A stretch of 64,000 bases of DNA from Selenomonas timonae (lineage in GTDB: Bacteria > Bacillota > Negativicutes > Selenomonadales > Selenomonadaceae). The position numbers were made by a program, and so were the translations under genes. Positions 1 through 4,125 of this stretch are shown one piece after another; within the stretch, counting starts at the first letter, position 1, and each line of letters opens with the position of its first letter. The notes below the pieces were generated by a model, which made no database searches, was not told the DNA's origin, and saw nothing but the letters and a program-made list of their open reading frames with translations. Location of the stretch: positions 310,001-374,000 of the forward strand of contig NZ_CP060204.1 of NCBI RefSeq assembly GCF_014250475.1, given 5' to 3'.

Positions 1-3000
1 AAGCTAAACCTCAGCGGGTGGACATCAAAGCGCGAGGTCATGCCCGTCTACTCGCACGGCAAGCAGTTCATCGCCGGCGAGAACTGGTACGAGGATTTCA
101 AACCGTCGCTGCGCTTCTACGGCTCGATCAAGAATGACGGTGTGAGCGGCTCCTACAGCTTTGACGATGCGAACAAGCTCTCCTTCCGCTTCACGACAGA
201 GCGCGAGAACATGCAGCGGCGCAACAAGGGCGAGCTCTACCCGCTCGGCTCGTTCTTCGAGCCGATGCAGATCTACCAGCGTGACCGCAAGCGCGACACG
301 TACAGCCTCAGCTACGAGGGCCGCATCGGCAAGAATACGGACTATACGCTGAACTACGGCTACGGCAAGCTGCGTGAGGACGACTCAACCATCCTCACCT
401 ACTACAGCAGCGGGCGTGACAAATACTCGGGCAAGAACAGTCTCGCAGGTGTGGACTATCTTGACCACACGCAGACGAACGTCGACCTGCACTTCAACAC
501 CGCCGTAAACGACGCGCACTATCTCAGCTATGGATTCGGCTGGCAAAAGGAGTACGCCGAGGGCTCACGTCTGCGCAATGCACCAAAGAGCTACACGAAA
601 AGGATCAACCCGTGGGACTATGACAAGTCGCTCGCGGTCGAGGACAATACAGCGGGGAAGGATGATGAACCGGACACGTATGTCCACAACTATAAATTCC
701 TCCGCAACGAGAACGGCTTTGTCTGGGACAAGAACGGCGAATACTATGGCTCGGAAAAGCCGCCGATGACGTATGAAGAGGCAAAAGCCTACGCTAAGAG
801 CGGCTTCTCCGATCCTGATTTAGCAGACAAATTCAACGCGTTCAACGATCTCTTGAATGCACAGAACGACTTCAGCGATCCCAAATTCAATAACTTGCCC
901 ATGCTGTATAAATACGCTCCTGCACTGGGGTACTATGGGCTGTTATCATCATCCGGACCGGCCTATAAACAGGACAAAAACATCACATTCAACGGGAAAT
1001 ATTACGGACAGGTGTTCGAGGAGCGCAAAAACCAACTGCTGATCGGCGAAGCAGATCTCACAAAGACCTACGCCTATGTACAGGACAGCTGGCAGATCAC
1101 GCCGAAGACCATCCTCACGCCCATCCTGCGCATCGACCACAGCAACCGCTTCGGCTCGCATGTCACAGCGAATCTCGGCATGACACACATGCTTGCGAAA
1201 CACCGCCGGCTCAAGGCGAACATCGGCACGGGCTACGGCGAGCCGGGGCTCGGCGAGCTGTTCTACAACTGGGAGATGTACGGCGGCACGGGCGCAGACC
1301 ATCTCGGCTGGTACTGGATCGGCAATCCGAACCTGAAACCCGAGAAGTCGCTGAACATCGACCTCGCATTCGAGGGAGAGAACGAACACACCTACGGCAA
1401 GGTCGGTGTGTTCCACAACGAGATCTCGGACTATATGACCCACTACTTCACAGGACAGCTTGTGGACTTCAACTTCCACGGCAAGAGTTTCCGCAACGTC
1501 CCCGACCGCATCTACAGCTTCCGCAACATCGGCAAGGCAAAGCTCACAGGGATCGAGGCAGAGGTTCAACACAAGTTCAGCAAGAACTGGAGCGCAAAAC
1601 TCGGCTATACCTACCTGCATGCCATCAACGCGAGCGATGATGATCTGCCGCACCGCCTGCTCGATCGTCCGACGCATAAATTCGATGTTGGCGTCAACTA
1701 CAAGGACGATGCACACGGCTGGCGTGTGGCGCTCTGGGGCAGCTTCTTCAGCCGGATGCTCGACAGCAACTCCGTTCAAACAGACAATCTGTTTGAAAAG
1801 GACGGCGCGGGCAACTACATTCGCAAGCGCGGCGAGTACCGCGAAAAGAGCTTCGGCATTTGGAATCTCCTCGTCGAGAAGGACATCCGCAAGGACTTCA
1901 CTGTCTACGCAGGGGTGGACAACCTCTTCAACCATCAGGACGACGATCGCGCCTATCATGACCGCACGTTCCGCTTCGGCGTGAATATGAAATTCGACGA
2001 CTTCGGCTCGTTCCTCGGCACGGGGATTCATCGCAACGCGGACGGCGTACTCGTCGATCGGGACGGTGTGCCGCTGAAAAACTTCTACGGAGACGACTTC
2101 TTCCTACACCGCCCCGAGACAGCGACGGACGGCAGGGCAAAGGGCAGCCTCGACTTCTTCGGCGACTACCGTATGCGTACGAGCACCTATCGCGGCTACG
2201 ATCGCGCGGAGATGCGCGAGACGAAGGAGACACAGGCGGATGAAGCGGCGGCACGCAACTACGCTGACCGTCCGGGACACGGCTTCGGGCAGCGTCTGCG
2301 CATCGGTGCGGACTACCGCATTGACGACAAGCTCGGGGTCAAGGCTGTGCTCGCAACGGGCAAGGCGAACGATGCGGCGGATCCCGTAGACGAAAATAAA
2401 GGACTCGGCGGTGTCCACATCGAGCGCGCCGAGGTCACGGGCAGCCCGGGTCACTGGGACTGGACACTGGGGCGCATCCACGAGCCGATGGGCGTGACGG
2501 GCTACTGGTTCGGCAAGGAGTACGACGGCGCACGCGTCCTCTATACAAAGGATCGTACGCAGGTCGCCGCCGGCTTCGGCGACTTCTCCCGCACGACGGG
2601 TGTCTACGACAGTGCCTACAGTCACAAGGAGGAAACAATCATCCGCCGCGCCCCGACGCTGAACGAACTGTTCGGCTACTATACACAGGAGGTACGCGAC
2701 GCAGAGAATCACACACAGCACGTCAGCAGTTCCCCCTATCCCATGGAATACGACCCAAATGCGCCGGCGAACTTCCGCGAGAAGTACAACAATGCGGGCA
2801 AGATTCAGGACGCAAACGGCAACTGGGTGCGCGATCCCGCACTCTCCGATACGCAGATTGCCCAGAAGAAACTGGAAGTCATGCGCGAATTTGTCAGCAT
2901 CCTCAAATCCGTGGATGCGGAACTCCTACGTCGCTCGAATGAAACACCCGGCGGCGGCGGATATGAGAGCAAATGGGAGAAGATCCTCAACGGGGATGGA

Positions 3001-4125
3001 GATCCGAGTACGGCAACCTTCAGGTTTTATAGTAATTTTTACAGTGCTCGTGTCGTTGTGCGGCGCAGCGACGGCGTCGTCCGCGACCTCTATCGCGACA
3101 ACAACTACGATGCACTCAAATATCTAAACCTCTCTCAGGAATCAGGCGTCAGTTCGCCTGTGGACAACCCGAAATACGGCGGCGTTGAGGGTTTGCTCCG
3201 CGAGCAGAATATCCGCACGATGATGGACGACATCCTAAAGGAAGTTGAGGATGCGGGCAGTACCTATGAGACGCAGGACGGACAGACGCTGACACGGGCT
3301 GAAGCAATCGACCGTATGTTCAACGACTTCGTCGGTGAAACTGCGGAATATTTTGACCAGAATATCCCCGGCAATTACGGCGGTTCGATTGGGAGATACA
3401 ACGGCGTATCAAAATTTTTCTCGGCAATGATGGGCAACGAGCGCTTCAATCCGCTCAACGATGCCCCCATCCCGCTCCCCGGCGCCCCCATCGCCTTCCG
3501 GCAGCCCGGCTTCCTGCTGAAACACGATGTCATTCCGAGGATGGAGCGCGCAGCCTTCCTCAAGGTGCGCCATCAGTTCGGCAGCCGCGTCGGCGCGGAG
3601 CTGTGGACACTGCACTCCTTCGGACACGGCATGGATGTGAAGGGCGAGAAACTCCCCATCGCGAATGTCATCGGCATCGGCGCACGCGCAGTCCTCGGAC
3701 CGCGCACGATGTTCTCCTTCGACTACGGCATCAACCGCGCTGCGACGGGACGTTACTTCCACGGCGGCAGGGACAGCTACGGACGCTATACGGGCGGCGG
3801 CTCTGTGCCATACTTCTGGGTCATGCGTCTGGACTTCGGCATCCCCGACATGGATATTCCCGGCAGCTGGGGTGTCTACCTCGACTACAAGAATTTCGAG
3901 CACGGCGCATTCCTCGGCGGCACGGGTGCAGATCTGCCCGACCGCTACCTCGACGGCATCCGCTCCTTCACCACCGGCATTGCCTTCGTCCCCGCGCGCG
4001 ACCTCATGCTTGAGGCGATGTATACCTTCGGTGCCCGCAGCACGCAGATGCGCGACACGCTCTATACGCCCGAGCACTTCCGCCTCGGCGACTACACACG
4101 TATCCAGCTCACCTATCGGTTCTAA
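1..4125 (+). CDS. TonB-dependent receptor barrel fused to an OmpM-like porin barrel (5' partial)
   Basis: The frame is open to the left window edge, so the signal peptide and plug domain lie outside. The first part, to about nt 2000, reads as a TonB-dependent receptor barrel of alternating amphipathic strands with long polar loops, closing with the typical aromatic-ended strand TFRFGVNMKF. The protein does not stop there. After a linker of about 40 residues, a second barrel runs from about nt 2130 to the end. It has features of Negativicute OmpM-type porins (GRIHEPMGVTGYW, PGSWGVYLDYKNF, terminal strand ending in F), interrupted by a polar insert of roughly 250 residues (about nt 2640-3420). 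It should sit in the outer membrane and import a TonB-energised ligand such as a metal chelate; the ligand cannot be read from the sequence. The fusion is seen directly, while the fold of the second half is inferred. Confidence 0.8.
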   Translation, partial: KLNLSGWTSKREVMPVYSHGKQFIAGENWYEDFKPSLRFYGSIKNDGVSGSYSFDDANKLSFRFTTERENMQRRNKGELYPLGSFFEPMQIYQRDRKRDTYSLSYEGRIGKNTDYTLNYGYGKLREDDSTILTYYSSGRDKYSGKNSLAGVDYLDHTQTNVDLHFNTAVNDAHYLSYGFGWQKEYAEGSRLRNAPKSYTKRINPWDYDKSLAVEDNTAGKDDEPDTYVHNYKFLRNENGFVWDKNGEYYGSEKPPMTYEEAKAYAKSGFSDPDLADKFNAFNDLLNAQNDFSDPKFNNLPMLYKYAPALGYYGLLSSSGPAYKQDKNITFNGKYYGQVFEERKNQLLIGEADLTKTYAYVQDSWQITPKTILTPILRIDHSNRFGSHVTANLGMTHMLAKHRRLKANIGTGYGEPGLGELFYNWEMYGGTGADHLGWYWIGNPNLKPEKSLNIDLAFEGENEHTYGKVGVFHNEISDYMTHYFTGQLVDFNFHGKSFRNVPDRIYSFRNIGKAKLTGIEAEVQHKFSKNWSAKLGYTYLHAINASDDDLPHRLLDRPTHKFDVGVNYKDDAHGWRVALWGSFFSRMLDSNSVQTDNLFEKDGAGNYIRKRGEYREKSFGIWNLLVEKDIRKDFTVYAGVDNLFNHQDDDRAYHDRTFRFGVNMKFDDFGSFLGTGIHRNADGVLVDRDGVPLKNFYGDDFFLHRPETATDGRAKGSLDFFGDYRMRTSTYRGYDRAEMRETKETQADEAAARNYADRPGHGFGQRLRIGADYRIDDKLGVKAVLATGKANDAADPVDENKGLGGVHIERAEVTGSPGHWDWTLGRIHEPMGVTGYWFGKEYDGARVLYTKDRTQVAAGFGDFSRTTGVYDSAYSHKEETIIRRAPTLNELFGYYTQEVRDAENHTQHVSSSPYPMEYDPNAPANFREKYNNAGKIQDANGNWVRDPALSDTQIAQKKLEVMREFVSILKSVDAELLRRSNETPGGGGYESKWEKILNGDGDPSTATFRFYSNFYSARVVVRRSDGVVRDLYRDNNYDALKYLNLSQESGVSSPVDNPKYGGVEGLLREQNIRTMMDDILKEVEDAGSTYETQDGQTLTRAEAIDRMFNDFVGETAEYFDQNIPGNYGGSIGRYNGVSKFFSAMMGNERFNPLNDAPIPLPGAPIAFRQPGFLLKHDVIPRMERAAFLKVRHQFGSRVGAELWTLHSFGHGMDVKGEKLPIANVIGIGARAVLGPRTMFSFDYGINRAATGRYFHGGRDSYGRYTGGGSVPYFWVMRLDFGIPDMDIPGSWGVYLDYKNFEHGAFLGGTGADLPDRYLDGIRSFTTGIAFVPARDLMLEAMYTFGARSTQMRDTLYTPEHFRLGDYTRIQLTYRF

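Follow-up and report, generated by a model that had tools for sequence, protein, structure and literature searches.

At the start of a 64,000-nucleotide stretch of Selenomonas timonae DNA (the window, G000:C1:310001-374000 on a complete single-contig 2.35-Mb chromosome), we found a gene whose single chain is predicted to carry two separately closed outer-membrane barrels, a TonB-dependent receptor followed by a barrel related to the OmpM porins. The explanation that we consider probable is that the product is a single-chain two-barrel receptor of heme type, in which the second barrel would display a variable capture loop. Positions 1-4125 of the window form one open frame without a break, as the original prediction had read it. 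The frame extends upstream to an ATG at G000:C1:309359, which lies 642 bp 5' of the window and is preceded by AAAGGAG, and the full gene product has 1588 aa and an evident signal peptide. A stop or frameshift at nt 2000-2130 was looked for as a possible refutation of the fusion, and none was present; the frame runs uninterrupted over 1990-2155. The junction was equally unbroken in five close orthologs (S. noxia, S. infelix, Selenomonas F0473, FOBRC6, and G141).

The first half of the protein contains a complete TonB-dependent receptor at residues ~60-879, consisting of a plug, a predicted 22-strand barrel, and a closing strand. The segment encoding the signal peptide, poly-G tract, TonB-box region, and plug is located 5' of the window (G000:C1:309359-310000), and the 3' part of the receptor half occupies positions 1..1995 of the forward strand (protein residues ~215-879), as assigned by Pfam, model, and structural match. 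Pfam recognized Plug (PF07715) at residues 60-164 (77.7 bits, profile 6-107/107) and TonB_dep_Rec_b-barrel (PF00593) at residues 402-856, and a TADIHVDA-like stretch behind the signal peptide is a candidate TonB box. The barrel had been proposed to close near nt 2000, and a closing strand resembling a beta-signal, RFGVNMKF (1972..1995, forward strand, residues 872-879), ends at 1995, and its pattern [RK]xGxNxKF is retained in most of 53 full-length relatives. Considering that the window lacks the 5' part of the receptor half, the S. noxia ortholog, which carries the same fusion, was modelled instead. The model has 22 barrel strands (mean predicted local distance difference test score, pLDDT, 70; predicted template modelling score, pTM, 0.70) and matched a CirA model with Z 36.6 and the crystal structures of PirA, BtuB, and Cir with Z 32.0-34.2, in alignments that cover the full length and, for CirA and BtuB, extend to the terminal residue. 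Plug, 22-strand barrel, and closing strand are thus common to the fusion and to CirA/FepA-type receptors; unlike those, the fusion chain goes on behind the closing strand for ~709 residues, which contain the second barrel. The NCBIfam receptor models that matched this half were all far under their cut-offs, and therefore no ligand name was assigned.

The second barrel starts at residue ~933 and finishes with the strand ...LTYRF at 4122. According to the model and profile alignment, its strands S1-S7, with a conserved GR...L3...DG segment, are encoded at 2155..2658, and strands S8-S16, with the terminal F and the stop codon, at 3514..4125, both on the forward strand. All 53 full-length relatives end again in a strand of the aromatic-F type. 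Modelled alone, this half was also predicted to close (mean pLDDT 70, pTM 0.58), and its best match in the PDB was OmpM1 of Veillonella parvula (Z 24.9, root-mean-square deviation 2.6-2.7) over 284-286 residues spanning model residues 57-716, with general porins next at Z about 20; Foldseek gave E 5.8e-12 for the comparison with OmpM1. Profile-profile comparison with Negativicutes SLH/OmpM porins reached prob 98 and E 1.9e-13 over the last strands, and hhalign with the insert removed aligned the two end to end (prob 98-99). A sequence search of the PDB with this half alone returned chance matches only, and Pfam gave a sub-threshold Porin_5 match only. The resemblance to OmpM-type porins and the barrel-closing F that had been noticed at the outset are borne out by fold, profile, and final strand, and the model of each half supports two separately closed barrels in the chain. 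OmpM1 is a trimeric 16-strand porin and a proven nutrient channel (PMC10628300). OmpM (V. parvula OmpM1, PDB 8BYM/8BYS/8BYT) has the 16-strand porin barrel, the L3 segment, and the C-terminal strands in common with the fusion; however, OmpM also has an SLH domain and a stalk, its peptidoglycan tether, whereas the fusion has a TonB receptor instead, plus an insert of ~285 aa, probably in L4. No Pfam match to an SLH domain was obtained in the fusion protein, in which the receptor occupies that position. Thus, the second half is an OmpM-derived barrel rather than an OmpM.

Between the barrels lies a hydrophilic linker of 53 aa (1996..2154, forward strand), which the topology places in the periplasm, consistent with the short linker originally described. 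Its length varies from 37 to 72 aa in relatives. One could suppose that a single chain is made and that cleavage within the linker then turns this one product into two independent outer-membrane proteins; the hydrophilic character and variable length of the linker, and the internal closing strand, which retains the form of a normal barrel end, fit such cutting. Nevertheless, the ratio of nonsynonymous to synonymous substitution rates (dN/dS) of the linker is 0.00-0.07 between Selenomonas orthologs, which indicates that it is under purifying selection, and stand-alone genes of either half's subfamily were not found in 252 genomes. Considering both points, physical linkage seems to matter, and we regard cutting as quite unlikely. 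Hydrophobic segments are absent from the linker sequence, and a second half translated from a start of its own would therefore be expected to lack a signal peptide.

The taxonomic distribution was investigated in the same 252 Negativicutes genomes. At a threshold of E <= 1e-60, the profile of the N-terminal half found 65 full-length copies, distributed over 38 of the 252 genomes; open frames of 1556 aa or more contained 63 of these copies. Strong matches to the profile of the C-terminal half occurred in long frames only, in the same 38 genomes and one fragmentary assembly (G313), while stand-alone porins (400-600 aa) matched it weakly, under 65 bits. The carriers belong to four families, namely that of Selenomonas, a Sporomusa-like family, and those of Megasphaera and Veillonella. 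Homologs with one half only had been suggested as a check, and neither profile found a strong stand-alone member of its subfamily in these Negativicutes, which argues that there was one ancient fusion, inherited as a unit; it is also amplified in places, with more than a dozen fusion loci in Megasphaera cerevisiae. The distances among N-terminal halves and among C-terminal halves are correlated (r = 0.91, 53 proteins). The original prediction had called a two-barrel chain unusual; the protein proves to belong to a Negativicutes family that is conserved (~65 copies, 38 genomes). Several relatives in draft genomes are frameshifted, as would be expected if the fusion had arisen from faulty assembly or annotation, or if the gene had decayed. 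Such an origin is nonetheless ruled out by the orthologs, the low dN/dS, and the complete single-contig genome; the same architecture recurs in dozens of genomes with purifying selection all along the gene, so that we hold it to be extremely improbable. Two copies in M. cerevisiae (L044:3956-7097 and L041:6-2908) lack most of the receptor barrel, the end of the plug lying near the second barrel; these truncated copies are recombinants, decay, or assembly faults. Four others (L063, L077, L082, and L134) have a frameshift inside the receptor half, at residues ~230-360 or 500-540, distant from the poly-G tract.

The large polar insert noted in the second half is real, with ~285 aa rather than the 250 given at first (~2659-3513, forward strand, residues ~1101-1385). 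It is helix-rich and variable, its length ranging from 212 to 389 aa in relatives, and it is essentially unconserved across all of them. The profile alignment puts it between S7 and S8, so that it is likely, although not proven, to lie in the extracellular loop L4. On the other hand, DSSP counts 18 long strands on the model, with two extra strands flanking the insert, which then falls between the 8th and the 9th, and the L4 placement depends on the 16-strand reading. Membrane insertion of the flanking strands would bring the barrel to 18 strands and place the insert in the periplasm, perhaps as a ligand-receiving domain. We consider this arrangement unlikely, as the closest fold is the 16-strand OmpM1, the profile alignment disagrees with it, and the cassette exchange and high variability of the insert are what surface loops typically show. 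Outside the insert, the protein shares 96-100% identity with its counterparts in S. infelix, F0473, and FOBRC6 at a synonymous divergence (dS) of 0.17-0.30, while the insert is 67% identical with dS 1.4-1.5 and 15 gap columns. Compared with S. noxia, the insert is 93% identical with dS 0.27, while the rest of the protein has dS 0.47-0.88. A mosaic stretch at about window 2653-3468 thus appears to have been swapped between Selenomonas species and the remainder of the gene not. These values strongly support the exchange of the insert between species as a cassette, and the pattern would correspond to recombination of a surface-exposed, diversified domain.

A G8 tract is located at G000:C1:309464-309471 (L003:9464-9471), 105 bp past the start codon, directly behind the signal peptide and 530 bp upstream of the window. 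In relatives the tract ranges from G8 to G13; many of them, Veillonella included, are without such a tract. Among the 17 genes with a tract of at least 8 and a readable 5' end, 8 were in frame with the signal peptide, as is the window copy (ON), and 9 were OFF and would need a one-base change; L075 was additionally inspected by eye. In 824 kb of collected loci, 16 of the 19 distinct G/C runs of at least 8 were found at fusion-gene starts. The variable tract with 9 of 17 copies out of frame suggests phase variation, and expression is probably phase-variable through poly-G slippage. Poly-G tracts within the reading frame similarly switch the phase-variable hemoglobin receptors HmbR and HpuAB of Neisseria (PMC3786947). 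Both are TonB-dependent receptors of heme type, and HpuAB adds a second, surface component (PMC3786947). The partner in HpuAB is a separate protein, whereas in the fusion it would be the fused porin barrel, and slippage in the fusion is deduced from comparisons.

The ligand was approached through gene context. Relatives of the fusion occur in heme operons with ExbBD/TonB, flavodoxin, and HutW, namely in Megasphaera, Veillonella, and a Sporomusa-type genome. At the Veillonella loci L121 and L122, an AraC-type regulator lies on one side of the one or two fusion genes and ExbB-ExbD-TonB-flavodoxin-HutW on the other, with HutW scoring 489 bits against a cut-off of 400; the linkage in G300 and G270 is similar, and the G296 copy adjoins an IsdE-like heme binding protein of an ATP-binding cassette (ABC) system. 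HutW above the cut-off was present in 38 of 38 fusion genomes and in 55 of 214 others (Fisher p about 1e-19, ancestry not corrected). HutW/HmuW and the flavodoxin HmuF carry out anaerobic heme degradation, and Fig. 1 of PMC10404700 shows hmu operons of Veillonella that include a TonB-dependent receptor for heme. By the gene order ExbB/D, TonB, HmuF, HmuW given there, Veillonella HmuR genes are very probably the same genes as the fusions, and G320 carries a fusion at that place; the searched text of that paper describes HmuR as a TonB-dependent heme receptor and leaves a porin unmentioned (PMC10404700). The operons support heme as the ligand in part of the family. The window copy is located after metNIQ, so a heme role for it is an extrapolation, which we think reasonably likely. 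A different ligand, such as a siderophore, cobalamin, or a metal chelate, with the heme operons concerning some paralogs only, would agree with that position, with the nearest solved relatives (CirA, FepA-type, and BtuB), and with paralogs that differ by more than 50% in sequence; given the operon linkage in Veillonella, G300, and G270, HutW in every fusion genome, and the IsdE-like system beside the G296 copy, it seems the less likely case. The window protein has a candidate heme-axial histidine between the FRAP-like and NPNL motifs; this histidine is not conserved in relatives and was therefore dropped as heme evidence.

Based on these results, the N-terminal CirA/FepA-type half would import an iron compound, most likely heme or the heme of a hemoprotein, powered by TonB-ExbBD. 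Past the normal closing strand, the chain would cross the periplasmic linker of ~50 aa into an OmpM-derived 16-strand barrel that would have lost SLH tether and stalk and would be mainly a membrane-anchored scaffold, possibly trimeric like OmpM. In extracellular L4 this scaffold would display the exchangeable domain of ~285 aa, which would act as an integral co-receptor next to the TonB-driven channel. Close to the mouth of the receptor, the L4 domain would capture the ligand, or the carrier of the ligand, much like the separate surface co-receptor, a lipoprotein, in two-part Neisseria systems such as HpuAB, and expression would be switched by poly-G slippage behind the signal peptide. We infer display, trimerisation, and the hand-over of ligand; the fusion of two barrel families in one gene, the conserved linkage of the halves, the exchange of the insert, and the tract and frame differences are demonstrated or at least strongly supported. 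Alternatively, the second barrel may be a working diffusion porin coupled to the receptor, which passes small products or by-products, as the original prediction had proposed, or which co-imports small solutes alongside the active importer. Conservation of the porin barrel and of its L3 segment (GR...DG) fits this role, and the closest structure, OmpM1, is such a channel; however, evidence for an open lumen is lacking, the largest feature of this half is a variable, exchanged insert and not a pore, and OmpM paralogues already provide general diffusion in Veillonella (PMC10628300). The variability of the insert therefore favours surface display over by-product release, and a diffusion role appears improbable.

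Several observations, besides the flanking strands described above, speak against a phase-variable heme receptor with a displayed loop. The predictions cover each half singly, and with a mean pLDDT of 70 their confidence is moderate. Shared ancestry confounds the association with HutW. The window copy stands outside a heme operon: HutW/ChuW and flavodoxin are side by side in this genome at L139:8924-11073 (G000:C1 ~230.9-233.1 kb), ~78 kb off, with no receptor beside them. By sequence, the receptor half is nearest to CirA/FepA/BtuB and not to known heme receptors, and a heme-ligating residue was not identified in it. Finally, the tract differences are between species and copies, and draft assemblies, which represent some of the genomes, may contain homopolymer errors.

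Upstream of the gene, a promoter-like TAGACA-16-TATAAT (11/12 matches, with TG ahead of the second hexamer) is located at ~70 bp. Between metQ and the fusion gene there is an inverted repeat that looks terminator-like by eye, unscored by the terminator scan. A search for plasmid carriage of the fusion gave no match. DUF3793 genes occur near fusion genes of the same subgroup (L003:5531-6124 and L132:1701-2255), and met-type ABC genes lie near both of these fusion genes, one in Selenomonas and one in a genome of the Megasphaera family.

To our knowledge, each chain forms a single barrel in the outer-membrane structures solved so far; multi-barrel outer-membrane proteins were reportedly the subject of Solan et al. 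(2021) in PNAS. They are a known predicted class, for example GfcD, in which, as in the fusion, two barrel domains are predicted in one chain (PMC11494523, which cites Solan et al. 2021). GfcD has 12 + 13 strands and acts in capsule export, whereas the fusion joins an energised receptor to an OmpM porin. A literature search that did not cover Solan et al. 2021 found no paper on a TonB receptor-OmpM porin fusion or on its phase variation, and the fusion is therefore a new combination, TonB receptor plus OmpM porin, within a known class. It is possible, although we put it forward with considerable doubt, that these proteins form a class of heme-piracy receptors restricted to diderm Firmicutes as far as has been observed. 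In such a receptor, the energised importer of 22 strands and the OmpM-derived barrel would work as one unit, and three chains might assemble a six-barrel complex around an OmpM-like trimer, with three swappable capture domains and poly-G phase-variable expression. From oral and gut bacteria that can be cultivated, the family supplies tens of naturally occurring, predicted two-barrel proteins. Since the closing signal in mid-chain must be read by the beta-barrel assembly machinery (BAM), tandem-barrel assembly can be tested in them. For the diderm Firmicutes of the mouth and gut, our results suggest a route of heme uptake: species would exchange the capture domain of the receptors involved, and receptor expression would probably be switched on and off.

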